Below, one piece after another: positions 20,802 to 34,870 of a stretch of DNA of 34,870 nucleotides (positions within the stretch are counted from its first letter, which is position 1; every line of letters begins with the position of its first letter). This stretch comes from Acidobacteriota bacterium (lineage in GTDB: Bacteria; Acidobacteriota; Thermoanaerobaculia; Multivoradales; J023). Under the pieces are notes generated by a model. That model ran no database searches. It worked only from the letters and a program-made list of their open reading frames with translations, and had not been told where the DNA came from. The position numbers and the translations under genes are program-made. Location: positions 1-34,870 of the forward strand of contig JAJCXO010000248.1 in the NCBI GenBank assembly GCA_029263395.1. Direction: 5' to 3'.

Positions 20802-23800
20802 TCAGAGGTCTTGCTGCCGAAAGACGGCAAGGTCCTTCTCAGCACGCCCCAGTAAGGGATGATGCAGTGTCTGGTAACACCGTAAGCGACGTTCTAGGAA
20901 GTCTGCTTCCCAGGGTACGTGAGGCTCGAAGGGGGCGAGGGCTTGCTCGCAGAGAGCCGCAAAAGCGGTGGTTTCTGCGATCTCGAGGCGAGTGCGTTGA
21001 CGGGCTTCGTCGAGCAATTGGACGGAGAAGGAGTCTCCCAACACACGGAACAGGTCAAGGCCGTGGACGGCGTCAACGCGGCTCAATTCGACAGCTAGAG
21101 CAAGGGCTCGCTCAAGGGTCGGGCGGTGGATCCAAGGATGGCTGCGGGCACCGCGAAAGACCGCCATCAGATGGTCTCGGGTTGTGTCCAATTGTCCCGT
21201 TCGGTAGGTGAAGCGCGCCCGCACCGCGTCCGCGGCCACCGGCTGTCCGGTGGCCGTCAGCTGGGTAGCGTGCTCCAGCGCTCGAGGGTCGCCGCTTTCG
21301 GCCAGCGCTTCAGCAACGATCAGCCGGTCGATAGGTGACGCTGCAGTGCTGGGTTGGGAATGCCAACGGCGCCCGGCGGCGATCAAGTCGCCGAGGATGT
21401 AGGCATTGCGGGCTGAAATTCTGGAGTCGGCGTCGTCTTCGAGGCCCAAAGGCGAGCTGAGGGCACCCCACTTGGCATCGCGAGCGGTCCGCAGCTCGAG
21501 CACTCGACGCCAATCGAGGCGGCCGTTGCGGATCGGTGGCAGATGTTCGCGACGGGCTGTCGCCAGCGCCGACAGACGATGCACGCTGAAGCCAAGGTCA
21601 CGCCCCAGGCCGCGGGCGAAACCGAACTCGACTATCGGATGGTCGTCGGTGTTGAGGGTGGCCACCTGGCGATGGATTGCGGTCGCGAGGGAGGACGAGG
21701 CTATAAAGCCGGTGTAGAAACCCTCGGCGCCTTCAACTCCGAGAGTGAACTGGAGGGCGCTGCGTAGAGGTTCCTCCAGGGTGCGTCGCTGGGTGCGGGC
21801 AAGGTCGTGATCAATCGGCGACTTGCTGGCTGCCAGCAAAAGGTCACCGCTGGCCAATTGCCAAATCTCGACGTGGGGAATCTCCGCAACCAGCGTCGCG
21901 ATCACGGTGCGCACCAGGTCGGCGTCCACGTGGTAACTCTGCAGCCACTGCAGAAAGATGCCCTCGTCCGCCAGCCGGGTTGCGGCGTCTCGGTAGAGGT
22001 CGCGGGTAAACAAGCTGGCGATGCCGGCACGGTAGGGGTTCGACGGTTCGGAGAAGATCAGATCGTAGGTTTGGCGAGACGTACGCAACATCTCGCGCCC
22101 ATCGCCGATGTGGAGGTGGACTGCCGGTTGCGACAAGACGTCATGATTGACCGCGGTGCAGATCTTGGCGACGTCGATCATCGCGGGTTCGAGTTCGGCA
22201 ACGTCGACCCGAAGGATGCCCGGGACCTGAGCCAGCCAGCCAGCACTCGAGCCTGTACCCAACCCGATGACTAGGGCATTTTTGGGCGCGGGGTGGAGGG
22301 TTGCGCCAATCAACACACTCATCACCTGAGTGGGAGCGTCACTGATCGCGCTACCGTCAGCTTTGCCATTGACCAACAGTGAGGCCTCGTCGAGGCCATG
22401 GATCGCTACGCTCGACTCGCGGCCATCTCGCTCCCAGCCGATCGCCCGGCGCACCGCATGACTCATCCGCCGCACTTCGTTGGGGCCGTCGAAGGCCGAC
22501 GGCATACCCCCGGCGCCGGTAGGTGTGTGGCGCCAGACTGCGCTCGGCCCTGGGGCCATTGTTGCCAACCCTAGGGTTCCGAGGGTTGCTGCCAGAGGCC
22601 AAACGAGTCGACGAGTGGCGGTCCTTGAAGGACGGGCCAGCACAATTGCCCAGCCGGCGAGGACCAATAACGACAAGGCGACCAGGATCCATAGATGGGG
22701 CGCCGAGAACAATGTGAGCAAACCCAAGCCGCCTGCCGCCGCGCCAGCCACCGCACCGGCGGTATTACAGGCGTAGGCTTGACCGATCTGACGTCCAAGG
22801 TGTTGTCGACCTCGGCCGAGCAGGGCAATCAGCAATGGGAATTGAAAGCCAGCGATCACCGCCGCCGGCAACACGACCACCCCAGCCAGCGCCGCCCAAC
22901 CGGCGACCTGCAGAGCAAAACTGACCTCACCAAGAGGCCTGAGCAACATGGCGACGACGGCGATCCGGTCCCCGAGGGCATAGGGGATCAGCAGCAGCAG
23001 CGCCTCCGCGGTGCAGGTGCCGGCAAAGGTCAGCAACGTCGGGCTGTGTCTTCGGGAGCTGGCGCCATAAAGCCACCCCCCGAGACCAACACCGAGCAAG
23101 GCCACCGCCAGAATGAGTCCAAAGGTGTAGGACGATCCACCCAACACCGGAGCGAGCATGCGGTACCACACCATCTCCATCAAGAAGAAGGCAAACCCAA
23201 CCGCTGCGGCTGCGGTCAGGACAAATCTCGGGTGAGTCGCTCGAAGCTCGAGGGCCTCTTCGGGTAGGTCCTCGGCAACCTCCTCGAGACGTCCCAGAAG
23301 AGGTGCCTCTTGGGCGTCTGTCGTCGATGCTCTGCCGAGCCACCAGGCCACCGCCGCCACCAGCAGATTGAGGCCGCTTGCCGCCCATAACGTGCCGCGG
23401 ATCCCGAGGTGTTCCAAGGCCAGAAAAGTTGCCGCCAACGCGCCGCACACGGCGCCCAGGGTATTGGCGGCATAGAGCAAGGCGACCGACCGTCGCCCAG
23501 TGTCCGTTGTGTGGGCAATGGCTCGGCTAGCAGCTGGCAATGTGCCGCCCATCAGGAAGGTCGGGACGCCGAGGACAAGTGCCGACAGCGCTAAGCGGAG
23601 TGCTGTCGCGGTTGGGCTGCCGAGTTCGCTGGTACCCCCGAGGCCGAAGTAGATGTGCTGTGCGACGAGGATCAACCAAGGGCTGAGGGCTGCCGAGATC
23701 GCCACTCCCGCTTCCAGCCCTGCATAACCGATGAGTGGGCGCCGCCAACGGTCGGCACGGGGCCCCAGGATCAGGCTACCGATACCGAGGCCGGCCATGA

Positions 23801-23942
23801 AGATCGCCAGGGTGACTGCCGAGGCGGTGGTACTGCCGCCGAAGATCAGCCTAAGAAGACGGAGCCAGGCGACTTGAAACACCAGCGCACAGAAGCCGGA
23901 GAGCAAGAGCAGGGGAGCCACCCGTGAGATCGATAACGTCAT
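20802..23942 (-). CDS. Large membrane protein with fused spermidine-synthase-like domain
   Basis: 1046 residues from the ATG at 23942, one base after the stop of the paralogous upstream gene (TGAGATG). The longer frame to 24158 overlaps that gene and is rejected. The N-terminal half has about twelve or more hydrophobic segments in a transporter-like arrangement (LLLLSGFCALVFQVAWLRLL opening, MGGTLPAASRA, LLYAANTLGAVCGA, then a second set). Next comes an aminopropyltransferase-fold domain: ALVIGLGTGSSAGWLA binds the nucleotide cofactor, DVAELEPAMIDVA follows, and the active-site region reads SEPSNPYRAGIASLFTRDLY. The last 300 residues are helical, TPR-like, of unknown role. The family (fused MFS/spermidine synthase) has no settled substrate. 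Polyamine synthesis should not be assumed. Confidence 0.85.
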   Translation of the reverse strand: MTLSISRVAPLLLLSGFCALVFQVAWLRLLRLIFGGSTTASAVTLAIFMAGLGIGSLILGPRADRWRRPLIGYAGLEAGVAISAALSPWLILVAQHIYFGLGGTSELGSPTATALRLALSALVLGVPTFLMGGTLPAASRAIAHTTDTGRRSVALLYAANTLGAVCGALAATFLALEHLGIRGTLWAASGLNLLVAAVAWWLGRASTTDAQEAPLLGRLEEVAEDLPEEALELRATHPRFVLTAAAAVGFAFFLMEMVWYRMLAPVLGGSSYTFGLILAVALLGVGLGGWLYGASSRRHSPTLLTFAGTCTAEALLLLIPYALGDRIAVVAMLLRPLGEVSFALQVAGWAALAGVVVLPAAVIAGFQFPLLIALLGRGRQHLGRQIGQAYACNTAGAVAGAAAGGLGLLTLFSAPHLWILVALSLLVLAGWAIVLARPSRTATRRLVWPLAATLGTLGLATMAPGPSAVWRHTPTGAGGMPSAFDGPNEVRRMSHAVRRAIGWERDGRESSVAIHGLDEASLLVNGKADGSAISDAPTQVMSVLIGATLHPAPKNALVIGLGTGSSAGWLAQVPGILRVDVAELEPAMIDVAKICTAVNHDVLSQPAVHLHIGDGREMLRTSRQTYDLIFSEPSNPYRAGIASLFTRDLYRDAATRLADEGIFLQWLQSYHVDADLVRTVIATLVAEIPHVEIWQLASGDLLLAASKSPIDHDLARTQRRTLEEPLRSALQFTLGVEGAEGFYTGFIASSSLATAIHRQVATLNTDDHPIVEFGFARGLGRDLGFSVHRLSALATARREHLPPIRNGRLDWRRVLELRTARDAKWGALSSPLGLEDDADSRISARNAYILGDLIAAGRRWHSQPSTAASPIDRLIVAEALAESGDPRALEHATQLTATGQPVAADAVRARFTYRTGQLDTTRDHLMAVFRGARSHPWIHRPTLERALALAVELSRVDAVHGLDLFRVLGDSFSVQLLDEARQRTRLEIAETTAFAALCEQALAPFEPHVPWEADFLERRLRCYQTLHHPLLGRAEKDLAVFRQQDL

Positions 23943-23943
23943 C

Positions 23944-26319
23944 TCAGTGTTCCCCGAGTTGCTGCCCGCCCAACAGAGCCTGTCCGCCGAGCAGACCCTG
24001 CTCGATGCTTGGTGGCCTCTGAGCTTCGAAGATGGTGACATCTTGCCGAGCTTGTTTCGACAAGGGATGGCGAGTGCGTCGGTAACAGGCGACACGATCG
24101 CGCAGGAAGGTGTCTTCCCACGGCGGGTGCGGCTCGAACGCTTCGAACGCTTGTGCACACCGATCAGGGTCGGTGCTAGCGAGCGCGATCCGGGTCTTCA
24201 GGCGCGCCTCGTCGAGCAGCCAAACCGCAAACGGCTCTTCCAGAGCGTCGAACAATTCGGAGGTGATCGACCCCAGATAGCTATCAGCCTGGGCCAGCTC
24301 GACGGCGAGCTCGAGGCCACGTATCAAGGTTGGAGGATAGACCCGCGGGTTGGCATGCGCCGCACGAAAAGCAGTGAGCAGGTGCCGGGTGGCGGCGGCA
24401 GGTGCTCGACGCCGCAGCTGCCAGCGGGCGAGGATGATCTCGGTTTCGATTGGGCGATTCTGCCGCAGCGCTTCAACCAGCTCCGGGACCCGATCATCGG
24501 CTAGCTCGGCGGAGGTCTCGGCAACCAGCAGACGATCGAACGGACTGCTCGGTTGTTGTCCGGCAGTCGCCCATTCGATCCGAGCTCGCCTGAGGTCGCC
24601 GCGCAAAAACGCGGTGGTAACAGGGTCGTGATCGGTGCTCATCTGCTCCCATGTTGCCAGTCGAGTACGGTCCAGAGCAGTACGGTCTAGAGCGTCGACC
24701 CGAGACCCTGCGGCACCCGGTAACGTCTCACCACGGACGAGGAACTCTGCCAGCCCTTCGACACCCCACAACCAGTCGAGAGCACCACGGTAGGGCTCTT
24801 GCTCGGCGAGCGTTCGCAGGCGCTCGAGATCGGGAGTAATAGGCTCGGCACTTGCAACCAGCAGAGTGCGATCGTGTTGCACTTGCCAGGTTTCCACCTG
24901 TGGCAAGCTACGTTCGAGCTCGGCTCGCGCTATCTTCAGGTGCCGTGACGGCAGGTGCCGAGACGGCAGATGTCGAAGTAGGAGCCCGCCTGGCGCCAAC
25001 CGCTTCGCAGCAGCTCGATAGAGCCCCAGCGTGTTGCGAGTCAGGTGCGACGGGTCGATCAGGATGAGATCGTAGCGATCGTCGCTGGCGGCGGGCAGGC
25101 CGTGCTGAACGATCAGTCGCACTTTGGGATTTGTTAGCGCGTCGTGATGGAGCGCCGCGAACGCTGTTGCGGCGCGTTCCATCGCGGGTTCGACCTCGGT
25201 CACGTCTACGCGTTCGATCTCCGGCACGGCGGCGAGCCAGCCAGTGCTTGTGCCGCTACCGAGTCCGACGACCAAAGCCCGCCTTGGGCGAGGATGAAGA
25301 GCAGCGCCAATCAGGCCGCTCATCACTTCCGCCGAGACATTGTGGAGACCGCCCACCGGACGACCATTAACTCGCAGTTCGGCGCCGCGCCGCGTCGCCA
25401 AAGCGACCCCCGAGGTTCTGCCGTCGGTGGCCCATTGGATCGTGCGTTGTTCTTGCTCGATCCAACGACTGAGCGCTGCCCGTCCGGAGAACGCCATTGG
25501 CCCGGTGACGGACGCGTCCACTGCGATTGGGCTGTGCTGCGAAATCGCAGTCGGTCCGGGCAAGCTGGCTAAGCAGATCGCTAGAGCGGCCGGGGGCAAG
25601 CTACCGACGAAGCGTCTCCACGGTTTGCCGTGACGCCAACCGCGCATCGCCAGGGCCAGAGCCAGGATGGCTAGTGTGAGCGCAACGATGCGCCAAGCAC
25701 CAACCACGGTTAGCCCATGGAGCATCTCCGTGCGTGCCCCGAGCCAGCTGAGCAACATGCTCAACATCACCACACAAAGCGAACGTGCGAGCTGTCGAGG
25801 CTTGCCGGTCGCTAGCGTCCGCCCCAAGCTTGCACCGAAGCCCAGTGCTGCAGGCAGTACCAGAGGCATCGCCACCAGGCACCAGCCGAGGAGCCTCGAC
25901 CCCTCACCAGCGGTGCTCATCGGCCGCAGTAGCAGCGCCAATAGAGCAAGTCGATCGCCGAAAGCGTAGGGCAGGATGAGCAACACAGCCGTCCACGCGA
26001 TCGCCACCCTTGTTGGCCGGGGCCTTACGACCTGTAAAACCCAGCCGACAGCGAGGCCGGCCACGACGAGGCTCAGCACTAGCCACCAGATTTGCCCGGG
26101 CTGCGGCAGACTTGGCCCAGATCCGAGCAGAGGGGTCAGCAGGCGGATCCAGGTGGCCAGCATTAGGCCGAGGCAACAACCGAGGAGGCCGGCGAGGATC
26201 GTCGCCTGGCCGTTCGAGAGCTCATCGGCTGCTGCTAGTGACGGTGGGTCGTTCAAAGGCTGGGCGAGTTCTAGCGTGTTGCTATCGAATCGATCCGCGG
26301 ATCGTAAGGGGTGGGCCAC
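23944..26319 (-). CDS. Divergent paralogue of the membrane/spermidine-synthase-like protein
   Basis: About 791 residues from a GTG at 26319; the start is uncertain, and the open frame runs to 26433 inside selA. It is paralogous to the next gene: PYAFGDRLALLALLLRP versus PYALGDRIAVVAMLLRP, ALVVGLGSGTSTGWLA versus ALVIGLGTGSSAGWLA, and FEPHPPWEDTFLRDRVACY versus FEPHVPWEADFLERRLRCY. It lacks roughly the first six membrane segments. Its catalytic-region motif is DPSHLTRNTLGLY instead of EPSNPYRAGIASLF, so enzymatic activity may be lost or altered. It contains three short in-frame repeats (23962, 24662, 24937). A tandem duplication followed by decay or specialisation of this copy is the simplest reading. 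Confidence 0.8.
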   Translation of the reverse strand: MAHPLRSADRFDSNTLELAQPLNDPPSLAAADELSNGQATILAGLLGCCLGLMLATWIRLLTPLLGSGPSLPQPGQIWWLVLSLVVAGLAVGWVLQVVRPRPTRVAIAWTAVLLILPYAFGDRLALLALLLRPMSTAGEGSRLLGWCLVAMPLVLPAALGFGASLGRTLATGKPRQLARSLCVVMLSMLLSWLGARTEMLHGLTVVGAWRIVALTLAILALALAMRGWRHGKPWRRFVGSLPPAALAICLASLPGPTAISQHSPIAVDASVTGPMAFSGRAALSRWIEQEQRTIQWATDGRTSGVALATRRGAELRVNGRPVGGLHNVSAEVMSGLIGAALHPRPRRALVVGLGSGTSTGWLAAVPEIERVDVTEVEPAMERAATAFAALHHDALTNPKVRLIVQHGLPAASDDRYDLILIDPSHLTRNTLGLYRAAAKRLAPGGLLLRHLPSRHLPSRHLKIARAELERSLPQVETWQVQHDRTLLVASAEPITPDLERLRTLAEQEPYRGALDWLWGVEGLAEFLVRGETLPGAAGSRVDALDRTALDRTRLATWEQMSTDHDPVTTAFLRGDLRRARIEWATAGQQPSSPFDRLLVAETSAELADDRVPELVEALRQNRPIETEIILARWQLRRRAPAAATRHLLTAFRAAHANPRVYPPTLIRGLELAVELAQADSYLGSITSELFDALEEPFAVWLLDEARLKTRIALASTDPDRCAQAFEAFEPHPPWEDTFLRDRVACYRRTRHPLSKQARQDVTIFEAQRPPSIEQGLLGGQALLGGQQLGEH
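23962..23997. repeat. 18-bp tandem duplication at the 3' end of the paralogue gene
   Basis: Imperfect copies CTGCCCGCCCAACAGAGC and CTGTCCGCCGAGCAGACC sit at 23962-23979 and 23980-23997. They encode LLGGQ-A-LLGGQ near the C-terminus, a segment not seen in the sister protein. Confidence 0.7.
24662..24691. repeat. 15-bp tandem duplication in the paralogue gene
   Basis: Imperfect copies CGAGTACGGTCCAGA and GCAGTACGGTCTAGA are adjacent at 24662-24676 and 24677-24691. In frame they give LDRTA then LDRTR. Confidence 0.75.
24937..24981. repeat. 15-bp tandem repeat, three copies, in the paralogue gene
   Basis: Units at 24937 (CAGGTGCCGTGACGG), 24952 and 24967 are in frame and encode HLPSR-HLPSR-HLKIA, just after the cofactor-binding domain core. 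Confidence 0.85.
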
Positions 26320-26341
26320 AGGTTGTATAGACTCTCCGTTT

Positions 26342-27754
26342 ATGACCGACTTGTCTGCACGAGATCTTCTGCGTCGAATTCCTAAAGTTGATCGCCTGTT
26401 GGCGGCAGCTGAGCTCGAGGCCCTCCACCTCACCTATCCGCGCCTGGAAATTGTCGGGCGCCTGCGCGAAACTCTGGATGCCCTGCGTCGCCAGGCGAGT
26501 GCCGGGACACTCCGCGAAGCCGATCTCGAGGTGCAGGCGATCCGAGATCGGATCGAAGAGCGGTTGATCCGTCGGTTTCGTCCGTACTACCGCAGAGTCG
26601 TCAACGCTACCGGCGTCATCCTTCATACGGGTCTCGGCCGTGCACCGCTTGCCCCAGAAGCGGTGACGGCGATCAGTGAGCTGGCAGCACACCCTCAGCG
26701 GGTCGAGATCGATCTCGAAACCGGCGAGCGCGGCGGCCGTGGCCTGGGCTGCGAACGCCTGCTGTGTGAGCTAGTGGGGTGCGAAGCGGCGGCGGTGGTC
26801 AACAACAATGCCGCGGCGACCATGCTCATCCTCGCCGCCCTCGCCCGAGGTCGTCGGGTGTTGTTGTCGCGAGGCGAGATGGTGGAGATTGGCGGCTCCT
26901 ATCGCATCCCGGAAATCATGCGGGAGTCCGGCGCGGTGTTGGTCGACATCGGGACCACCAACCGTACCCACGAACGTGATTATCGCCAAGCCCTGGACGA
27001 CGAGGCCGGCATGATCCTCAAGGTCCACACCTCGAATTATCGCGTGGTGGGCTTCACCAGCGAAGTCGAGATCGATGCGTTGTGTACGATCGGTCGTGAA
27101 CACGGGGTGCCGGTTGTCCACGATCTTGGCTCCGGCTGCTTGGTCGACTTGGCGGCCCACGGTCGACCCGGGGAGCAGTTGGTGCGTGACTCGGTGGCGG
27201 CGGGCGCCGACCTGGTGTGCTTCAGCGGTGACAAGTTACTCGGGGGGCCGCAAGCCGGTCTCATCGTCGGCCGGCGCGAAGCGGTCGAGGCTTGCCGACG
27301 CCATTCACTGTTTCGCGCCATGCGTCCCGGGCGGTTGATCTACACCGCCCTCGAAGCGACCCTACGGCTTTATCTCGGTGGCACCGAGGAGGCGGTTGAG
27401 AAGATCCCGGCTCTGCGGCGTCTCACCGCTGACGTCAACACGTTGCGGCCGCGAGCCGAAGCGTTGGCCGCCCGTCTCGCCGACCTGCCAGCCCTCGAAG
27501 CGACCGCTATCGAATGTGCGTCGCAAGCCGGCAGCGGTTCGATGCCGGCTCGCGAAATCGCCAGTTGGGGCGTCCGTATTGTGCCGCGTGACGTATCTGT
27601 CAAAGCCTTTGCTACCGATTTACGGCGCGGCGAGCCAGCGGTCCTCACACGGGTCCAGGACGATGCCTTGATCATCGACCTACGGACGGTGGACGAAGAC
27701 GAGTGTGTAGAGATCGAACAGCGCCTGCGCCAGCTGAGTTCGGTGCCAGACTAG
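26342..27754 (+). CDS. L-seryl-tRNA(Sec) selenium transferase
   Basis: PLP enzyme that converts Ser-tRNA(Sec) to Sec-tRNA(Sec) using selenophosphate. The protein is 470 residues from the ATG at 26342 (MTDLSARDLLRRIPKVDRLL), the normal SelA length and N-terminal pattern. The longer frame to 25976 runs into the divergent gene and is rejected. Lys298 in FSGDKLLGGPQAG is the PLP lysine (Lys295 in E. coli). RVVNATGVILHTGLGRAPL, VNNNAAATMLILAALA and VVHDLGSGCLVD are also family blocks. It implies that the organism makes selenocysteine; selB, selC and selD are not in the window. No clear Shine-Dalgarno is seen. It heads a probable operon with the transporter downstream. Confidence 0.97.
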   Translation: MTDLSARDLLRRIPKVDRLLAAAELEALHLTYPRLEIVGRLRETLDALRRQASAGTLREADLEVQAIRDRIEERLIRRFRPYYRRVVNATGVILHTGLGRAPLAPEAVTAISELAAHPQRVEIDLETGERGGRGLGCERLLCELVGCEAAAVVNNNAAATMLILAALARGRRVLLSRGEMVEIGGSYRIPEIMRESGAVLVDIGTTNRTHERDYRQALDDEAGMILKVHTSNYRVVGFTSEVEIDALCTIGREHGVPVVHDLGSGCLVDLAAHGRPGEQLVRDSVAAGADLVCFSGDKLLGGPQAGLIVGRREAVEACRRHSLFRAMRPGRLIYTALEATLRLYLGGTEEAVEKIPALRRLTADVNTLRPRAEALAARLADLPALEATAIECASQAGSGSMPAREIASWGVRIVPRDVSVKAFATDLRRGEPAVLTRVQDDALIIDLRTVDEDECVEIEQRLRQLSSVPD

Positions 27755-27817
27755 CCGGCTGCCGGTGGTCCGCGCGAGAGTCTGGGCCGTCTTCCCATAT
27801 CCAACAAGGAGCTTTTG

Positions 27818-28738
27818 ATGTTCAGTGTTTCGATGCCACGTGTCCCAGCTCGATTTGTGATCAGTCTCGGCCTTGTGCTCGCCGTCGCCGGTTGTGGCGG
27901 CGACAGTTCGGAGCCGACCGCGGAACCGGCGGCTCAAGCGAAGGTCTTCCGGTTCTCCGCTATCCCCGACCAGAACACTACCCAGGTGAGCGAGAAGCTA
28001 GCGCCACTCGTCGAGCATCTGTCGCAGCAGCTCGGTGTGAGGGTGGAATATGTACCGGCCCGCGACTACCAAGCGTCGGTTGAGATGTTCAAGAACGGTG
28101 ATGTGCAGCTGGCTTGGTTCGGCGGCCTAACCGGCGTCCAGGCACGGCAAGCGGTGGCAGGTGCTTTGGCTATCGCCCAGGGCGAGAGTGATCCCAGCTT
28201 CTACAGCTACTTCATCGCCCACAAAGATACCGGTCTCGAGCTGTCGGAGGAGTTTCCGACCGCCATCAGCAAGCTGAAATTCACCTTTGGTTCTGAGAGT
28301 TCAACCTCGGGGCGGCTGATGCCGGAGTTCTACATTCTCGACAACACCGGACAATCCCCAGCCGACTTCTTCGAAGCGCCGGTCGGCTTCTCCGGCAGCC
28401 ACGACAAAACCGTCGAATTGGTGGAGTCGGGGCAATTCGAAGTGGGTGCCGTCAACTACACGGTGTACGACAAACGCGTGGCGAATGGCGATACCGACCC
28501 TGAGGTGGTGCGGGTGATCTGGAAGACACCGCTTTACGCCGATTACAACTGGACGGTGCGACCCGATGTCGATGCAGACTTTGGCGCTGGGTTTAGCGAA
28601 CGCCTGCGCCAGACCCTGGTGTCGATCGACGATCCCATGTTGCTTGCGGCGTTGCCGCGTCAGCGTCTGATTCCGGCGACCAATGAGGAGTTCGAGGGTA
28701 TCCGCAAGGTTGCGGAGTCTTTGAACATGTTGCGCTAG
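27818..28738 (+). CDS. Substrate-binding lipoprotein, PhnD-like, putative selenium-oxyanion ABC transporter
   Basis: 306 residues from the ATG at 27818, with AAGGAG six bases upstream. It has a lipoprotein signal with lipobox VAGC (Cys26) and a following Gly/Ser/Glu/Pro-rich linker. The mature part is of the phosphate/phosphonate-binding PhnD type: FRFSAIPDQNTTQVSEKLAPL, VEYVPARDYQASVEMFKNGDVQLAWFGGLTGVQAR, and a SESSTSGRLMPEFY loop that would hold the anion. This subfamily is the one annotated as putative selenate ABC transporter binding protein because it occurs beside selenium genes. Its position 63 bp after selA fits that. Ligand identity (selenate, selenite or another selenium compound) is not experimentally implied by the sequence. 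Confidence 0.9.
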   Translation: MFSVSMPRVPARFVISLGLVLAVAGCGGDSSEPTAEPAAQAKVFRFSAIPDQNTTQVSEKLAPLVEHLSQQLGVRVEYVPARDYQASVEMFKNGDVQLAWFGGLTGVQARQAVAGALAIAQGESDPSFYSYFIAHKDTGLELSEEFPTAISKLKFTFGSESSTSGRLMPEFYILDNTGQSPADFFEAPVGFSGSHDKTVELVESGQFEVGAVNYTVYDKRVANGDTDPEVVRVIWKTPLYADYNWTVRPDVDADFGAGFSERLRQTLVSIDDPMLLAALPRQRLIPATNEEFEGIRKVAESLNMLR

Positions 28739-28746
28739 AGGAGTTG

Positions 28747-29529
28747 ATGAGCGAGCGCGGCGCCAGTTTCCGGCTCGACGGAGTCTCCGTCACCTTTGGC
28801 GAAACTGCTGCTTTGCGCGAGGTCAACCTCGAAATCAAGCCTGGCGAAGCAGTCGGTTTCGTTGGGCCGAGTGGCTCGGGTAAAACGACGCTGTTGCGGC
28901 TGCTGAACGGTGCCGTCCGGCCGACGAGCGGCACCGTGGAGGTGAATGGGGAGGCTCTGACGAGCCTGAGCCCGCGCCAGTTGCGGAGCCTACGAAGCCG
29001 TGTTGCCACGGTCCATCAAGACTTGAGCTTGGTGCCCAACCTGCGGGTGATGCGCAACGTCCTGCTCGGTCGTTTGGGTCGTCTGTCGTTGTTGTCGACG
29101 TTCCGGCTGTTGTTCCTGCCGCCACGCAGTGAGGTGTTGCGGGTACACAAAATCCTCGAACGGGTGGGGATCGGTGAGAAGTTGTATCAACGGACCGATC
29201 AGCTGTCTGGCGGCCAGCGCCAGCGCGTCGCCATCGCCCGGGCCTTGTATCAAGAGCCGTCGGCCCTACTGCCCGACGAGCCGATTTCAAGTCTCGACCC
29301 GGCGCGCTCTCGGGACACGATGGGGCTGTTGATAGAGCTATCGCGAGAGACGGGCATCACCCTGTGCGTCAGCCTGCACGACCTTGAGGTAGCGCGGGAG
29401 TTTGTGCCGCGCCTGATCGGGTTGCGGCGCGGCAAAGTAGCCTTTGATCGATTGACGGAAGAGCTTACGAGCGAGGACTTTCGCGAACTCTACGATCTGG
29501 CCGAAGACGAGATGCTCGATGGCGTTTAG
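28747..29529 (+). CDS. ABC transporter ATPase, PhnC-like, of the putative selenium transporter
   Basis: A 260-residue single ABC domain. Walker A GPSGSGKT is at residues 40-47, the Q-loop VHQDLSLVPN, the signature LSGGQRQRVAIARAL, Walker B ALLPDEPISSLDP and the H-loop SLHDLEVA. The catalytic Glu after Walker B is present. The residue before the Walker B Asp is Pro, where Ala is usual, a minor oddity. The ATG at 28747 follows GAGGAG by three bases and lies 8 bp after the binding-protein stop; an in-frame TTG precedes it. The 3' end overlaps the first permease by 11 bp, indicating one operon. Confidence 0.93.
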   Translation: MSERGASFRLDGVSVTFGETAALREVNLEIKPGEAVGFVGPSGSGKTTLLRLLNGAVRPTSGTVEVNGEALTSLSPRQLRSLRSRVATVHQDLSLVPNLRVMRNVLLGRLGRLSLLSTFRLLFLPPRSEVLRVHKILERVGIGEKLYQRTDQLSGGQRQRVAIARALYQEPSALLPDEPISSLDPARSRDTMGLLIELSRETGITLCVSLHDLEVAREFVPRLIGLRRGKVAFDRLTEELTSEDFRELYDLAEDEMLDGV

Positions 29530-30373
29530 CAGTCGCGGACTGGTGCTGTTGACCCTTGGAGCAGCGGGCCTGTGGGCAGCCTTCGAGCTCCGCCTCGACC
29601 CGCGGGACCTGGTGCCCAGTGACGGTGGCATGGTCATGGCGCGTGAGTTGTTCTCCCGTGCCTGGTCGCCAGCGCTGGCCTACGAGGCAGCGGATGTTCC
29701 GGCGGGTACTCGGCCACTGCTGCTCAAGGCCCTCGAGGCGGCCCGTTTGACGGTTGTTTTTGCGGCTGCCGCGATCAGCCTGTCGTTGGTTTGTGGTGGC
29801 ATCCTCGGTTTTTTTGCCTCAACCGCCTGGTGGGTAGGGGATCAAACTGGTGGGGCGAAGGTGGGATGGTCGAGACACGGGGTTCGTCCCGTGGTTTATG
29901 GGGTTGCGCGGTTGATCATCGCGCTGATGCGTTCGGTGCACGAGTTGCTGTGGGCAGTGCTGCTGCTTGCAGCCTTCGGGCTCAGTCAACTGTCGGCGGT
30001 GATCGCCATCGCAATTCCTTACAGTGGCACCTTTGCCAAAGTTTTCTCCGAGATGCTGGACGAAGCACCGCGCGACTCGGCCGTGGCGCTGCGCTCCGCT
30101 GGCGCGTCGTCGTCGCAGATCTTCCTCTTCGGCTTGTTGCCACGGGCCCTGCCGGACATGAGTGCCTACGCCTTCTACCGTTTCGAATGTGCCCTCCGGT
30201 CCTCCGCCATCCTTGGTTTCTTCGGCTACCCGACCCTCGGTTATTACATTGCTGCGTCGTTCGAGAACCTCTATTACGGCGAAGTCTGGACCTATCTCTA
30301 CACCCTGGTTTTGTTGGTAGTCGTCGCGGATTGGTGGAGTGGTGCGTTACGCCGTCGGTTGGTGTTGGCATGA
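29519..30373 (+). CDS. ABC transporter permease, PhnE-like (first of two)
   Basis: A 284-residue inner-membrane protein with about six hydrophobic segments. The EAA-type cytoplasmic loop reads EMLDEAPRDSAVALRSAGASSSQIFLFGLLPRALP, the contact with the ATPase. ARLIIALMRSVHELLWAVLL and RSSAILGFFGYPTLGYYI are PhnE-family blocks. The ATG at 29519 lies inside the end of the ATPase gene. The stop overlaps the second permease as ATGA. It should pair with the second permease as a heterodimeric channel for the selA-linked binding protein. Confidence 0.92.
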   Translation: MAFSSRGLVLLTLGAAGLWAAFELRLDPRDLVPSDGGMVMARELFSRAWSPALAYEAADVPAGTRPLLLKALEAARLTVVFAAAAISLSLVCGGILGFFASTAWWVGDQTGGAKVGWSRHGVRPVVYGVARLIIALMRSVHELLWAVLLLAAFGLSQLSAVIAIAIPYSGTFAKVFSEMLDEAPRDSAVALRSAGASSSQIFLFGLLPRALPDMSAYAFYRFECALRSSAILGFFGYPTLGYYIAASFENLYYGEVWTYLYTLVLLVVVADWWSGALRRRLVLA

Positions 30374-31293
30374 GTGTCGACGGTCGCATCGCTGAAGTCG
30401 AACGACTCCGTCGTCGTCGTCCACGCGATCGTTTCGCTCGGCTGAGCGTTTGGGCGCTCGTACTCTTGACCCTGTTGGCTTGGTCGAGTGAAGGCCTGTG
30501 GTCCACAGACTACTTCTCGCCGCGTCGCCAGCAGAACCTGCAACGGTTCCTTGGCGAGCTACGGCCGCACCCCTTGCAAGGGCAGCCGTTCGACGTCTCG
30601 GTCGCAACCGCCTGGGCGGGTGAGATTCTGAGCGAGCGCGGTTGGGAAGCGGCCCGCATCACCCTCGCGATGTCGGTTGCCGCCATCGTTTTGGCCTCCC
30701 TCGCCGGACTGGCCTTGACGCTCACTTCCGCTCGCACCCACGCAACATCTGAGCCGTACCTACCGGGGCCACGACCGCCAACCCGTGGCCAGCGTTGGGT
30801 ATGGCGCGCCGTTGTGGGTGCCAGCCGTCTCGTGCTGATCCTGATCCGTTCGATCCCCGAATACGTCTGGGCGTTTATCTTGCTCGCGGTGCTCGGTCCC
30901 AATGCCTGGCCCGTCGTGCTGGCCTTGGCCCTCCACAACGCCGGCATTGTCGGCAAACTCACTGCTGAAGTCGTCGAGAATCTCGAACCGGGGCCGTTAC
31001 GTGCCTTGCGAGGCGTTGGGGCCGGTCGACTACAGATCGCCGCAACCGGCCTCTTCCCGCTGATCCTGCCGCGCTTTCTACTGTTCTTCTTCTACCGTTG
31101 GGAGACTTGCGTGCGTGAGGCCACCGTCCTCGGCATGCTCGGCATCACCTCTCTAGGCTTCTGGATCGTCGACTCCCGAGCCCGCAATCATTATGACGAG
31201 ATGTTCTTCTTCGTCCTGATGGGCGCTGGCCTCGTGCTGATCGGCGATCTGGTGTCCGCGGTAGCGCGCGAAGTTGTGCGTCGGGCGGCGTGA
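30370..31293 (+). CDS. ABC transporter permease, PhnE-like (second of two)
   Basis: 307 residues from the ATG at 30370 (MSVDGRIAEVERLRRRRPRDR), which overlaps the previous stop as ATGA; the frame open from 29791 is a shadow inside the first permease. It has an Arg-rich cytoplasmic N-terminus, then about six hydrophobic segments. The EAA-type loop is ENLEPGPLRALRGVGAGRLQIAATGLFPLILP and the final block is REATVLGMLGITSLGFWI. It has the same architecture as the preceding permease with clear but distant similarity (RSIPEYVWAFILLAVLG versus RSVHELLWAVLLLAAFG). Last gene of the selA operon. Confidence 0.92.
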   Translation: MSVDGRIAEVERLRRRRPRDRFARLSVWALVLLTLLAWSSEGLWSTDYFSPRRQQNLQRFLGELRPHPLQGQPFDVSVATAWAGEILSERGWEAARITLAMSVAAIVLASLAGLALTLTSARTHATSEPYLPGPRPPTRGQRWVWRAVVGASRLVLILIRSIPEYVWAFILLAVLGPNAWPVVLALALHNAGIVGKLTAEVVENLEPGPLRALRGVGAGRLQIAATGLFPLILPRFLLFFFYRWETCVREATVLGMLGITSLGFWIVDSRARNHYDEMFFFVLMGAGLVLIGDLVSAVAREVVRRAA

Positions 31294-31322
31294 TTCAGCC
31301 GATAGCCGTCCAGAAACAGGGG

Positions 31323-31397
31323 GTCTTCGAAGACGGACCGAGCTTCTCGTCGAAGCCACCTATAAGAGCAACAAGACCACCGTCCTTCCGGGTGGTC
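31323..31397 (+). terminator. Palindrome and hairpin after the selA operon
   Basis: GTCTTCGAAGAC at 31323-31334 is a perfect 12-bp palindrome. Further on, GACCACC (31375-31381) pairs with GGTGGTC (31391-31397) over a 9-base loop. Either could mark the operon end. Neither has a T-run. Confidence 0.35.
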
Positions 31398-31481
31398 GCA
31401 ATACCACGCCGCAGTACGGTTCGTTCTAGGAGGGGAGATGCGACGATCGCCTCTAGAGAAGCACTAGTCGAAGGAGAAAGC

Positions 31482-31544
31482 ATGAAAGGACATAGTGTCG
31501 AAGCACTTGCTCATAAGATTTGCGCGTGGACGGGAGCCTGCTAA
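31482..31544 (+). CDS. Possible 20-residue leader peptide or small protein
   Basis: The ATG at 31482 is preceded by AAGGAG five or six bases upstream and encodes a 20-residue peptide beginning MKGHSVEAL and ending ICAWTGAC. It lies in the 407-bp gap (31294-31700) before the stress-protein gene. Two other short frames there also have good ribosome-binding sites: ATG 31438 after GGAGGGG (nine residues) and GTG 31646 after GTAGGAG (23 residues, stopping at 31717 inside the next gene). No family is recognised. Read together, they suggest leader peptides or translated small frames, with low certainty. Confidence 0.25.
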   Translation: MKGHSVEALAHKICAWTGAC

Positions 31545-31700
31545 ACCCCTGGCCACCAAGCGTAACGGATACTCAGTGAACTTCGCAGAAGACCCAGAGA
31601 GCGAAATCACAGGGCCGCTACCGGACTGGTCGAGGTAGGAGAACCGTGACGGCACAGCTCTACCCAAACGTCGGTACGACACCTGAATTGGAGGAAATCC

Positions 31701-32147
31701 ATGGCCGAGTTCTCTAGGATCCTTGTGACCACCGATCTCTCCGACCAAGCTCTGCCGGGCGTCGTACGGGCAGCCTCGCTCTCCCGTCTGCTTGGCAGCG
31801 AAGTCGTCCTGCTTCTAGTGGTGGAGGACGACTTGCCGCCAATCCTCGGATTACCTTCGGATTCGGAGCGCGATCGGATCCTGGAAACGCACCGAGAGCG
31901 AGCGGCTGAAGCGTTGACCGAGTACGCCGGAGAGCATCTGGTTGGCTGTCAAGTGGAGACCGCTGCAGTGCTAGGGGTGGCCGCTAGGGAGATCGTCGCC
32001 TATGCGAAGGAAAACGCGGTCGATCTCATCGTCATGGCGAGCCATGGCTATGGCCCGATACGGCAGATCCTCCTGGGCAGTACGACAGAGCGCGTGCTCC
32101 ACCACGCCCCATGCCCGGTGCTGGTGACCCCATCACGAGGCGGCTGA
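31701..32147 (+). CDS. Universal stress protein (UspA family)
   Basis: A 148-residue single Usp domain, cytoplasmic. It opens with FSRILVTTDLSDQA and ends with HAPCPVLVTP, both typical. The ATP-binding loop reads ASHGYGPIRQILLGSTTERV (about residues 113-132). Gly116 and Gly126-Ser127 of the G-2x-G-9x-G(S/T) motif are kept while the first Gly is Ala, so ATP binding is likely but not certain. GGAGG precedes the ATG by six bases. No neighbour explains its trigger; its gene stands alone between the selA operon and a convergent cytochrome gene. Confidence 0.93.
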   Translation: MAEFSRILVTTDLSDQALPGVVRAASLSRLLGSEVVLLLVVEDDLPPILGLPSDSERDRILETHRERAAEALTEYAGEHLVGCQVETAAVLGVAAREIVAYAKENAVDLIVMASHGYGPIRQILLGSTTERVLHHAPCPVLVTPSRGG

Positions 32148-32371: not shown

Positions 32372-34870
32372 TTAGGGCAAGTTGATCTTGGTCCCGAAGC
32401 CGTGCAAACCGCTCTCGACCCGAAACATCATGCGAAAGGCGACAGATTCGTTGATGTCGGTTGAGATCACTTCCGCGATGCCTCCCTGGCCAACGGTGAC
32501 GTTGACCGTCGAGAACGTTGTCGAAACCCGACCCTGAGCGTCGGTGGTGCCGCTGAAGTTCACTGGGTTGGCGGTGATCGCTCCGGTGCCTCCCGGAATC
32601 CACTCGAACCAGTCGAAGTCGACTGTGACCGGGTGGTTTGCAAGGGGTGCGGAGGTTGCACCGTCGTGGATCTGGAAGGTGGCTCGCAGCAGAAATTGGC
32701 CGGTGCCGACGCCGATGGCCACCACTTGCAGATCGGTGCTCTCGACATGCATGGTGTTCTGGAACAGCCGTGGCTGCATGTTGACTGCCGGGGTGATCGG
32801 GAAGGTTTGGCTGTTGGCCGGGCTGGCCGGATCTGCCGTCACCACTTCGACGGTGTAATTGCGACCTGCAATCAGACCGCGCACTACCTCCGAGTGTTGC
32901 CACTTGAAGGTCAACTCCTCGGCGGTGGCGACGATGTTGCCGTTTTCGCGAACGATAACCCGACTGATCGACTCTTCGTCGGTCAGCCAGCGCACCTTCA
33001 TGACGTTCGAATTGAACCAGGCAACTGCAGGATTGATAGCGGTCGGCGCTTGCGCATCGCCGCTCGGCAGGCTGGTAGCGTCATTGGGATTGGAGCCGAG
33101 ACGGATCTCGTAGCCATCAGGAAATGTGTCGCTATCGGTGTCTGGAGTGAGGTGACTCGAGCACACCGTCGGTGGGCTGGGGCAGGTCTTCGACTCGTCG
33201 CCGTCGAAGACGAAGTCCATGTCGCGATCGATGCCGAGGCGATAACCCAGTCCAACCGGTGTACCTATGAAGGTCAACACGGCGTTGCCGGCCTGAGCAA
33301 AGTTGATCAGCTGCGTCGCGTTGTAGGGACCGAGGCCGGTGGTATCGGTGATATACAGGCCGCCAAGCTTGTACATGCTGATGTCCTGCATCCCAGTGCC
33401 TGGATCGAACCGGCCGCGGACGATGACGTCGTTGTGTCCGACATTACTCGAGACCACCAGCTGGACCGCATCCTGTGGGATGTTGGCGACCGAGACCTGA
33501 TCCATGGTCCAGGCGTAGGCCGTCGTCGGTGCCATGCCGGTGTCGAGTTGCTTGAAGAACTCCTTGACGGAGTCCTTCTGCGCCGGCCCGCCAAGACCGC
33601 CACCGGCCACCTCGACAAATTGATCGAAGCTGTCGAAGATACCCAGATTGCCGAAGCCCCAGCCGGAAACCGGGAACATCGGTTCCGCAGCAAACGGCGG
33701 GTGGTCGTATTGGTCGCTCAACTTGTCGTTCATCGCACGCAATTGGGTGACGTCACCGGGGACAACCGCGCCACCGCTGTCGTTGGTGACTTGATTGATG
33801 GTGCCGGAAAAGCCGGCCATGGAGTGGCAGTCCTCGCACGAGACGGACATCGAACCGAAAGGAGGGCCGTTGTCGTCGGTGCGGAAGGTCAGACTCAGGG
33901 GATTGAAAAAGCAGGATGCACCGTCGAGCGCCGGAGCATCGTAGACGCGGTCGAAGCTCTGCTCAGGGTTCGGCCGGTAGGATAGGCTGAAGATGAAGTC
34001 GTCGAGCTCCTGGACTTGTTGCGCATTCAATATATTGCCGCCCAACAGGCCTTCTTGGGCGTCGTTGAACGCCGCCAGGTCGTCGCGATCACCACGCCAG
34101 TGAAAGGGTGGCGTCTCTTCGATCCCACGCAGTGACATCGTCACCTTGAGGTTCTTGTTATCGCGGAGGAACAGGCGATCGAGAGCGGGTAGCGGTTGGC
34201 CGACTTGTGAGGGAATGTCGCCGCTCAGGTCGCTGAGATTCCAGGCGATGCCGTCGGTATGGCCGAGGAGATGGCACGATGCGCAGGCTTCGGTGCCAAA
34301 GGCAGAGTTGGCCGTATTGTTGAAGTGGAAGCGCCCCGCGATCACGTTGGGTGGTGTGATGTTGTAGCCGATCGACGTCGGCACTGTCTGCACTGGCGCA
34401 TTGACTGTGCCAGTGGCTGGGTTGTCGTTGTAGACCCGGAGGCTGCTGTCACCCTGCTCGTAGGAGTAGACGACATGGCGGCTTTCGTCGAGCAGTAGGC
34501 CGAAGGTGCCGAAACCAACCTGGTTGGTCACTGTGGCGCCGGAACGCAACTCGGCGATCACCTGGGTTGGTGGGTAGTCGAGCACCGCGATGTTGTTGCT
34601 GCCGTAACACGAGACATAAAGGCGGTTACCAGCTGCGTTGAAGGCCATCTGGTTGGGAAAGGCGCAGCGGTAGCCGAGGCTGGCCAGTGCCCCGTTGACG
34701 TTGGCTGGATCGTTGAGGTCGAAGTGGTTGACCGTCAAATTGGAGGTGGCCGAGGTGGCGTCGGGACCCATGCTGATGCGGTGAATCGTCGGCCGACCGA
34801 GCTCGACGGTGTCTTTGGGGTAGAGCTGCTCGGTCAGGATGAGGTCGTTGCGCATTTCCATGTTCGACAC
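32372..34870 (-). CDS. Large extracytoplasmic di-haem protein with beta-propeller and Fn3-like domains (5' end outside window)
   Basis: At least 832 residues; the true start lies beyond the right edge. The N-terminal visible part has YVTN/beta-propeller-like repeats (AFNAAGNRLYVSCYGSNNIAVLDY). Two c-type haem sites follow: CASCH at about 34274-34288 and CEDCH at about 33823-33837. The region around them (TMSLRGIEETPPFHWRGDRDDLAAFN) resembles the di-haem cytochrome c peroxidase/MauG group. Then come a calcium-binding thrombospondin-type-3 motif (DTDSDTFPDGYE), a fibronectin-III-like stretch and an Ig-like C-terminus. It is probably periplasmic or surface-exposed. Function is unknown; electron transfer or peroxidase-like oxidation is possible. 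The stop TAA is at 32372-32374. Confidence 0.85.
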   Translation of the reverse strand: MSNMEMRNDLILTEQLYPKDTVELGRPTIHRISMGPDATSATSNLTVNHFDLNDPANVNGALASLGYRCAFPNQMAFNAAGNRLYVSCYGSNNIAVLDYPPTQVIAELRSGATVTNQVGFGTFGLLLDESRHVVYSYEQGDSSLRVYNDNPATGTVNAPVQTVPTSIGYNITPPNVIAGRFHFNNTANSAFGTEACASCHLLGHTDGIAWNLSDLSGDIPSQVGQPLPALDRLFLRDNKNLKVTMSLRGIEETPPFHWRGDRDDLAAFNDAQEGLLGGNILNAQQVQELDDFIFSLSYRPNPEQSFDRVYDAPALDGASCFFNPLSLTFRTDDNGPPFGSMSVSCEDCHSMAGFSGTINQVTNDSGGAVVPGDVTQLRAMNDKLSDQYDHPPFAAEPMFPVSGWGFGNLGIFDSFDQFVEVAGGGLGGPAQKDSVKEFFKQLDTGMAPTTAYAWTMDQVSVANIPQDAVQLVVSSNVGHNDVIVRGRFDPGTGMQDISMYKLGGLYITDTTGLGPYNATQLINFAQAGNAVLTFIGTPVGLGYRLGIDRDMDFVFDGDESKTCPSPPTVCSSHLTPDTDSDTFPDGYEIRLGSNPNDATSLPSGDAQAPTAINPAVAWFNSNVMKVRWLTDEESISRVIVRENGNIVATAEELTFKWQHSEVVRGLIAGRNYTVEVVTADPASPANSQTFPITPAVNMQPRLFQNTMHVESTDLQVVAIGVGTGQFLLRATFQIHDGATSAPLANHPVTVDFDWFEWIPGGTGAITANPVNFSGTTDAQGRVSTTFSTVNVTVGQGGIAEVISTDINESVAFRMMFRVESGLHGFGTKINLP

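Follow-up and report, generated by a model that had tools for sequence, protein, structure and literature searches.

A 34,870-nucleotide stretch of DNA from an Acidobacteriota bacterium (GenBank assembly GCA_029263395.1, contig JAJCXO010000248.1, hereafter the window) carries the selenium transferase gene selA followed directly by four genes for a PhnD/PhnC/PhnE-type ATP-binding cassette (ABC) transporter. Our data suggest, with a probability of roughly 0.7, that these four genes encode a dedicated importer of an inorganic selenium oxyanion; they are probably co-transcribed with selA. Passages of two reviews, from 2022 and 2026, state that no specific high-affinity selenium transporter is known in prokaryotes (PMC9312934; PMC13188914). 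The locus and its relatives would be a concrete candidate for such an importer, present in several phyla and near genes of three selenium pathways. Selenium transport had already been proposed in the name of the protein family TIGR04553, and the window locus joins this known, hypothetical family. New here are an association with selenium genes that was set against controls, the proximity of relatives to sen clusters, the placement of the picocyanobacterial protein PhnD1 inside the family and an argument for selenite.

All five genes have intact frames on the + strand. The first, selA (26342..27754, 470 amino acids), encodes L-seryl-tRNA(Sec) selenium transferase and scored 534.7 bits against TIGR00474 (cut-off 267.9) and 436 bits against Pfam SelA. 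It is followed by genes for a PhnD-like periplasmic binding protein, a lipoprotein of 306 amino acids (27818..28738), a PhnC-like ABC ATPase of 260 amino acids (28747..29529; PF00005, 124.6 bits) and two PhnE-like permeases, permease 1 of 284 amino acids (29519..30373; PF00528, 52.7 bits) and permease 2 of 307 amino acids (30370..31293; PF00528, 59 bits). Gaps of 63 bp and 8 bp flank the binding-protein gene, the ATPase and permease 1 genes overlap by 11 bp, and the permease genes share a 4-bp ATGA overlap. The ATG of the binding-protein gene is preceded by AAGGAG, and a signal sequence with the lipobox VAGC was seen by eye at residues 23-26. Pattern scans found neither a terminator-like site in the 63-bp gap behind selA nor, within 26100-31760, a sigma-70-type promoter. 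Spacing and strand thus point to one operon of selA and the four transporter genes.

The binding protein scored 320.3 bits against NCBIfam TIGR04553 (ABC_peri_selen, 'putative selenate ABC transporter'), above the curated cut-off of 250 bits. NCBIfam classes this entry as 'hypoth_equivalog', and the name is itself a hypothesis. The equivalog cut-offs for the phosphonate transporter PhnCDE were missed by every part of the system: the binding protein reached 136.5 bits with TIGR03431 (PhnD, cut-off 261.1), the ATPase 251.7 bits with TIGR02315 (266.1), and permeases 1 and 2 reached 146.2 and 145.1 bits with TIGR01097 (216.7). No gene for phosphonate or phosphite breakdown was recognised in the 16 window open reading frames scanned with Pfam, a scan that left the other frames of the window and the rest of the genome unsearched. 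The two permeases are distinct, with 30% identity across 210 aligned positions. In alpha- and gammaproteobacterial relatives both are fused into a single chain of about 490-510 amino acids (L106 9927-11453; L107 3879-5366; L158 9492-10961; L168 1486-2955). The NCBIfam PhnE model matched two stretches per chain in all three fused chains scanned (L106, L158 and L168), and Pfam gave no match on the same three. Because relatives encode both permeases as one chain, a heterodimer of permease 1 and permease 2 is well supported. PhnE systems with two permeases exist elsewhere, and the feature is not novel per se. The original prediction had read the five genes as one operon, placed the binding protein in the PhnD-like group labelled putative selenate transporter and taken the two permease genes as a sign of a heterodimer, and as far as sequence goes the coordinates, the TIGR04553 score and the fused chains bear it out on these points.

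The original prediction had also proposed a dedicated selenium importer and had held that a genome without selD, selB and selC would speak against it. All three genes are present in the genome of the window (G000; 10.7 Mb in 291 contigs, the window being contig C248), and as far as sequence can test it the proposal is supported by these genes, by the tracking of selD and by the recurrent selenium neighbours described below. The tRNA-Sec (selC) scored 68 bits and was called by ARAGORN as tRNA-SeC with anticodon tca; selB scored 346 bits and selD 365 bits. The active-site motif of SelD, CGUAAK, has a TGA in frame, and SelD is probably itself a selenoprotein. The selD gene lies on contig C222 (L116 2-3486), together with senA on the other strand (491 bits against a cut-off of 420) and with senB, of which the contig end leaves only the 3' part. 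The organism therefore probably makes selenoneine besides selenoproteins. The genome also has a PhnD paralogue of its own on contig C171, which scored 100 bits against TIGR04553 and 188 bits against PhnD and fell on a different branch of a quick tree.

Relatives of the cassette recur near selenium genes. A tblastn search with the binding protein found 54 loci (L023-L076; best segments 46-74% identical), of which only L060 and L068 were scored against TIGR04553, both above the cut-off. In 42 of the 54 the full set of four transporter genes was recognised, ordered as in the window; in the other 12 between one and three of the genes are missing, in some cases where the contig ends. With eight further loci and 11 alphaproteobacterial carriers, 73 carrier loci beyond the window were examined for SelA, SelB, SelD, SenA, SenB, EgtD and MnmH, mostly over stretches of up to about 8 kb; this number counts two genomes twice (L057/L115 and L060/L167, identical sequences). 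Selenium genes were found near the cassette in 16 of the 73, namely 8/62 of the tblastn and further loci and 8/11 of the alphaproteobacterial carriers. In L168 the order is binding protein, ATPase, fused permease, selA and selB, with genes overlapping or close. Six loci (L158-L163) combine the cassette with an NADH-dehydrogenase-SelD fusion and senB, and four of them (L158, L159, L162 and L163) have senA too. The cassette is followed by senB, senA and selD in L024 and by senB in L071, is adjoined by senA and senB in L048, L106 and L107, and lies beside egtD in L108, where senA-senB-selD stand at 6-9 kb. Nearby genes are selD and selA in L030, selD in L031 and selD-selA-selB in L164, where the end of selB is about 7 kb upstream of the cassette. 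The stretches of L108 and L164 were wider than 8 kb, to include a known nearby selD; in each, a selenium gene is also present inside a limit of about 8 kb. Identities of Sen proteins, SelA and SelB were confirmed with NCBIfam on chosen examples and that of SelD in six scanned fusions, which scored 291-310 bits against the selD model (cut-off 125). The possibility that these fusions are not SelD was rejected; against the model 'fusion_not_SelD' they scored 457-492 bits, below its cut-off of 700.

This neighbourhood of cassette and selenium genes exceeds chance. The controls were 38 loci of hand-picked homologues below the TIGR04553 cut-off, mostly higher-scoring ones and including L114 and L119. 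One of the 38 had a panel gene (p 0.005 against 16/73), namely egtD and no other (L170), a gene that is not specific to selenium. A further locus, L112, had been chosen for its adjoining selD and was for that reason not counted as a control; with it the count is 2/39 (p 0.016). In a simple model that places 3-8 selenium clusters at random in a genome of 3 to 4.5 Mb, 16/73 has p values of 4e-7 to 9e-16. Two other readings of the neighbourhoods were rejected. Adjacency to selA is not the usual layout of the family, being found beyond the window in 1/73 (L168), with selA within 8.5 kb in L030 and L164. Conserved non-selenium neighbours gave no usable hints to the substrate; they were mostly reverse-frame shadows or neighbours common to close relatives.

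The presence of the family also tracks selD across proteobacterial genomes. Among 185 gammaproteobacterial genomes, 7 have a TIGR04553 protein over the cut-off and 39 have selD; selD is present in 7/7 carriers and in 32/178 others (p 1.2e-5). Among 289 alphaproteobacterial genomes it is present in 10/11 carriers and 50/278 others (p 7.3e-7), these Fisher tests taking related genomes as independent. The only alphaproteobacterial carrier without selD, G730, has selA-selB directly behind the cassette (L168). When only stand-alone SelD was counted, with frame length and score as the criteria of a manual sorting, the association was 4/7 against 18/178 in gammaproteobacteria (p 0.004) and 6/11 against 14/278 in alphaproteobacteria (p 1.9e-5). 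Gammaproteobacterial homologues that scored 187-240 bits, below the cut-off, had selD in 0/9 genomes. Co-occurrence over all phyla, with selD in 45/51 distinct carriers (a count that leaves out L073-L076), was dropped as support; base rates are 198/297 and 136/199.

A maximum-likelihood tree of 78 rows, rooted on PtxB, kept 59 carriers including the window; 11 carriers (mostly near-copies, plus the divergent L110) and 24 controls were dropped from it, and a quick tree had 113 rows. The alignment leaves out L072, L073, L075, L076 and the control L139, which were too short or broken. The 59 carriers and two picocyanobacterial PhnD1 proteins formed one clade with moderate support of 96/71 (bootstrap/Shimodaira-Hasegawa-like approximate likelihood ratio test). 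PhnD1 was nested within the carriers at 100/95, with the group of L108, L109 and L113 outside, and a clade of carriers without PhnD1 was rejected by the approximately unbiased test (p-AU 0.031). The window grouped with L024 and L071 at 100/99, and at 99 in the quick tree. In these two closest relatives senB stands directly behind permease 2, and in the window selA stands in front. One transporter lineage would then serve two selenium pathways, and since it adjoins selA in the window and senB in L024 and L071, selenium supply would be the simplest factor common to both.

The AlphaFold2 model of the binding protein had a mean predicted local distance difference test score of 91.1. Its best structure matches were PhnD1 (7s6g, 5lq8 and 5lq5), and the sequence search agreed. 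The PhnD1 sequences of 7s6g and 5lq5 scored 337 and 303 bits against TIGR04553, both above the cut-off. The fold matches include AioX in a solved complex with arsenite (6eu7), and binding of a different reduced oxyanion or oxyacid by this fold has a precedent in it. The residues named in and around the phosphate site of PhnD1 are D11, Y44, T65, S123, S124, T125, S126, H156, N174, D203 and Y204 (PMC10284923), and in our alignment the window protein is identical at 11/11 of them. Across the carriers the pocket Y, S, T, S and H and the capping Y are invariant (69/69), and the acceptor Asp is present in 68/69. Phosphite and selenite are pyramidal XO3 ions, and selenate is tetrahedral like phosphate. 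At neutral pH selenate, like sulfate, has no proton to give to the Asp, and selenite is largely HSeO3-, which can donate one. PhnD1 proteins bind phosphite with dissociation constants (KD) of 0.05-4.3 uM and phosphate with 7-182 uM; by ratios taken from the same table, phosphate binding is 6 to 3,600 times weaker (Table 1, PMC10284923). Because a pocket identical to that of PhnD1 takes pyramidal phosphite above tetrahedral phosphate, selenite would be favoured over selenate as the ligand, and we put selenite at about even odds. By the same analogy, 'selenate' in the TIGR04553 label probably names the wrong oxidation state. The string 'selen' is absent from the main text of PMC10284923 and PMC5700983, and the papers brought up by our searches of the open-licence PMC literature showed no selenium-binding measurement for the TIGR04553 family.

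On the proposed pathway, the oxyanion would be captured in the periplasm by the lipid-anchored binding protein, whose small pocket comprises a Tyr, a Ser-Thr-Ser loop, a His, an Asp and the capping Tyr. The loaded protein would then dock on the permease 1/permease 2 heterodimer, as the single chains of the relatives suggest, and from what is known of the family an ATPase dimer would power import. The imported selenium is presumed to be reduced to selenide in the cell; SelD would convert it to selenophosphate, and SelA would load selenium on tRNA-Sec. By their families, senB and senA at the selD locus probably use selenophosphate for selenoneine.

A first rival holds that the transporter imports phosphorus, as a PhnD1-type phosphite/phosphate system whose selenium neighbours are incidental. 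The closest characterised homologues indeed bind phosphite, phosphate and methylphosphonate, the first-shell pocket is that of PhnD1 with the affinities given above, and the nesting of PhnD1 at 100/95 places these homologues inside the family. In a broad thermal-shift screen PhnD1 was stabilised by phosphorus sources alone, and the authors favour a role in phosphate uptake; the compound list is in the supplement, and whether it included any selenium compound is not visible from the main text (PMC10284923). Phosphorus import does not readily account for 16/73 loci near genes of three selenium pathways in several phyla, or for the selD association in gamma- and alphaproteobacteria, and the window proteins miss the PhnD, PhnC and PhnE cut-offs. 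It also fits poorly with the picocyanobacteria themselves. The main text of PMC10284923 reports PhnD1 in 97/97 picocyanobacterial genomes of the Cyanorak database, a phnD1 operon that is not induced by phosphorus starvation, and no growth on phosphite for Synechococcus WH8102 and MITS9220 or, as cited therein, for Prochlorococcus MIT9313 and MED4, strains that have phnD1 without genes for phosphite or phosphonate breakdown; Prochlorococcus MIT9301, which has phnD2 and breakdown genes, does grow on it. We therefore consider phosphorus import unlikely. Import of selenate, a special case of the selenium-oxyanion importer, is suggested by the TIGR04553 label and by the tetrahedral shape that selenate shares with phosphate, a PhnD1 ligand (PMC10284923). 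It is also improbable, though slightly less so, since the PhnD1 pocket prefers XO3 over XO4 (PMC10284923) and the Asp of 68/69 carriers is a hydrogen-bond acceptor for which selenate has no proton. Far less probable still as cargo, in place of an inorganic oxyanion, is a small selenium compound that is organic or reduced, such as methylseleninate. The linkage to senB and senA indicates that carriers handle organic selenium, and a methyl group is tolerated by most PhnD1 proteins (methylphosphonate KD 17-109 uM; one Synechococcus protein does not bind it). The capping Tyr, invariant in 69/69, sterically restricts the site of PhnD1 (PMC10284923, section 8), and because of it selenoneine and selenosugars should not fit the pocket.

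Several further observations, like the ligands and the screen of PhnD1, weigh against a dedicated importer of a selenium oxyanion. No selenium gene was found in the stretch examined at 57/73 carrier loci. At three loci (L034, L057 and L067) the 3.6-8 kb after the binding-protein gene gave no match to an ATPase or permease; these may be orphan binding proteins, or their transporter genes may be located elsewhere. The selD association is not general: selD is present in 3/4 carriers and 195/293 others in the window's phylum, and in 9/12 named relatives among the Planctomycetota against a sample rate of 136/199. There is no enrichment in either because selD is common there anyway. The six distinct carriers of 51 without a detected selD were all deposited as metagenome-assembled genomes. 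Lower-scoring gammaproteobacterial homologues (144-181 bits) had selD in 4/6 genomes, G718 included, and the independence assumed by the Fisher tests counts in the same direction. The selenium link is also not exclusive to the TIGR04553 family. In the gammaproteobacterium G718 (L112 5517-10447) a PhnD-like transporter stands directly before selD and the selenouridine synthase gene mnmH, and its binding protein scored 150 bits against TIGR04553 and belongs to the PtxB branch. It is therefore possible that transporters of the PhnD fold were recruited to selenium more than once.

A selenium-oxyanion importer remains our preferred reading of the window locus, and it may extend to the picocyanobacteria. 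Prochlorococcus and Synechococcus have been reported to carry an NADH-dehydrogenase-SelD fusion, and cyanobacteria to carry ybbB (PMC1273633), so both genera are likely to use selenium. Tentatively, and at slightly less than even odds, the TIGR04553/PhnD1 clade might be the missing high-affinity selenite uptake system of bacteria, serving selenocysteine, selenouridine and selenoneine, with PhnD1 importing selenium in Prochlorococcus and Synechococcus and phosphite acting as a structural mimic of selenite. If true, this would offer a possible answer to why picocyanobacteria keep a phosphite-binding transporter, mostly without phosphite-use genes, that has been called paradoxical (PMC10284923). 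Purified and crystallised PhnD1 exists already.

A universal stress protein gene lies separately downstream of permease 2, at 31701, and upstream of selA is an oppositely oriented gene with a methyltransferase domain. On the - strand at 20802-26433 are two adjacent large genes, seemingly related on inspection by eye and perhaps a tandem duplication. They encode an 1118-amino-acid protein like a major facilitator superfamily transporter and spermidine synthase and an 829-amino-acid protein with a methyltransferase domain, the frame of which overlaps the start of selA head-to-head. An open frame of 832 amino acids on the - strand (32372-34870) reaches the end of the window; it has no Pfam match at E 0.001, and the heme-like motifs CASCH and CEDCH were noted in it by eye. 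Rfam gave zero matches across the whole window.

Among known systems, PhnD1-C1-E1 of marine picocyanobacteria provides the solved structures closest to the window binding protein by sequence and fold (7s6g, 5lq5 and 5lq8), and its PhnD1 falls in the same clade and has an identical pocket. Unlike the window system, it has been described as a phosphate transporter of medium affinity that is constitutive and has tesA for its conserved neighbour, and sections 5-8 of that paper mention no selA neighbour (PMC10284923). PtxB shares the fold, the STS loop, the His and the capping Tyr with the window protein, but it has Gln for the pocket Asp in 3/3 PtxB sequences aligned and forms a separate branch in the quick tree. 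PhnCDE of the E. coli type is similar in protein folds and families, whereas the window proteins miss its equivalog cut-offs and the window has two permeases. Relatives of the window transporter lie in or near SenABC selenoneine clusters (L071, L024, L048, L106-L108 and L158-L163); the window's own genome instead has its sen genes on contig C222, apart from the transporter, which accompanies selA. The TIGR04553 label has been used in a proteomics table (PMC9426549), and in a genome paper it is interpreted as selenite export (PMC13077682). The window protein passes the cut-off of this family, but the name says selenate and the pocket argues for selenite.

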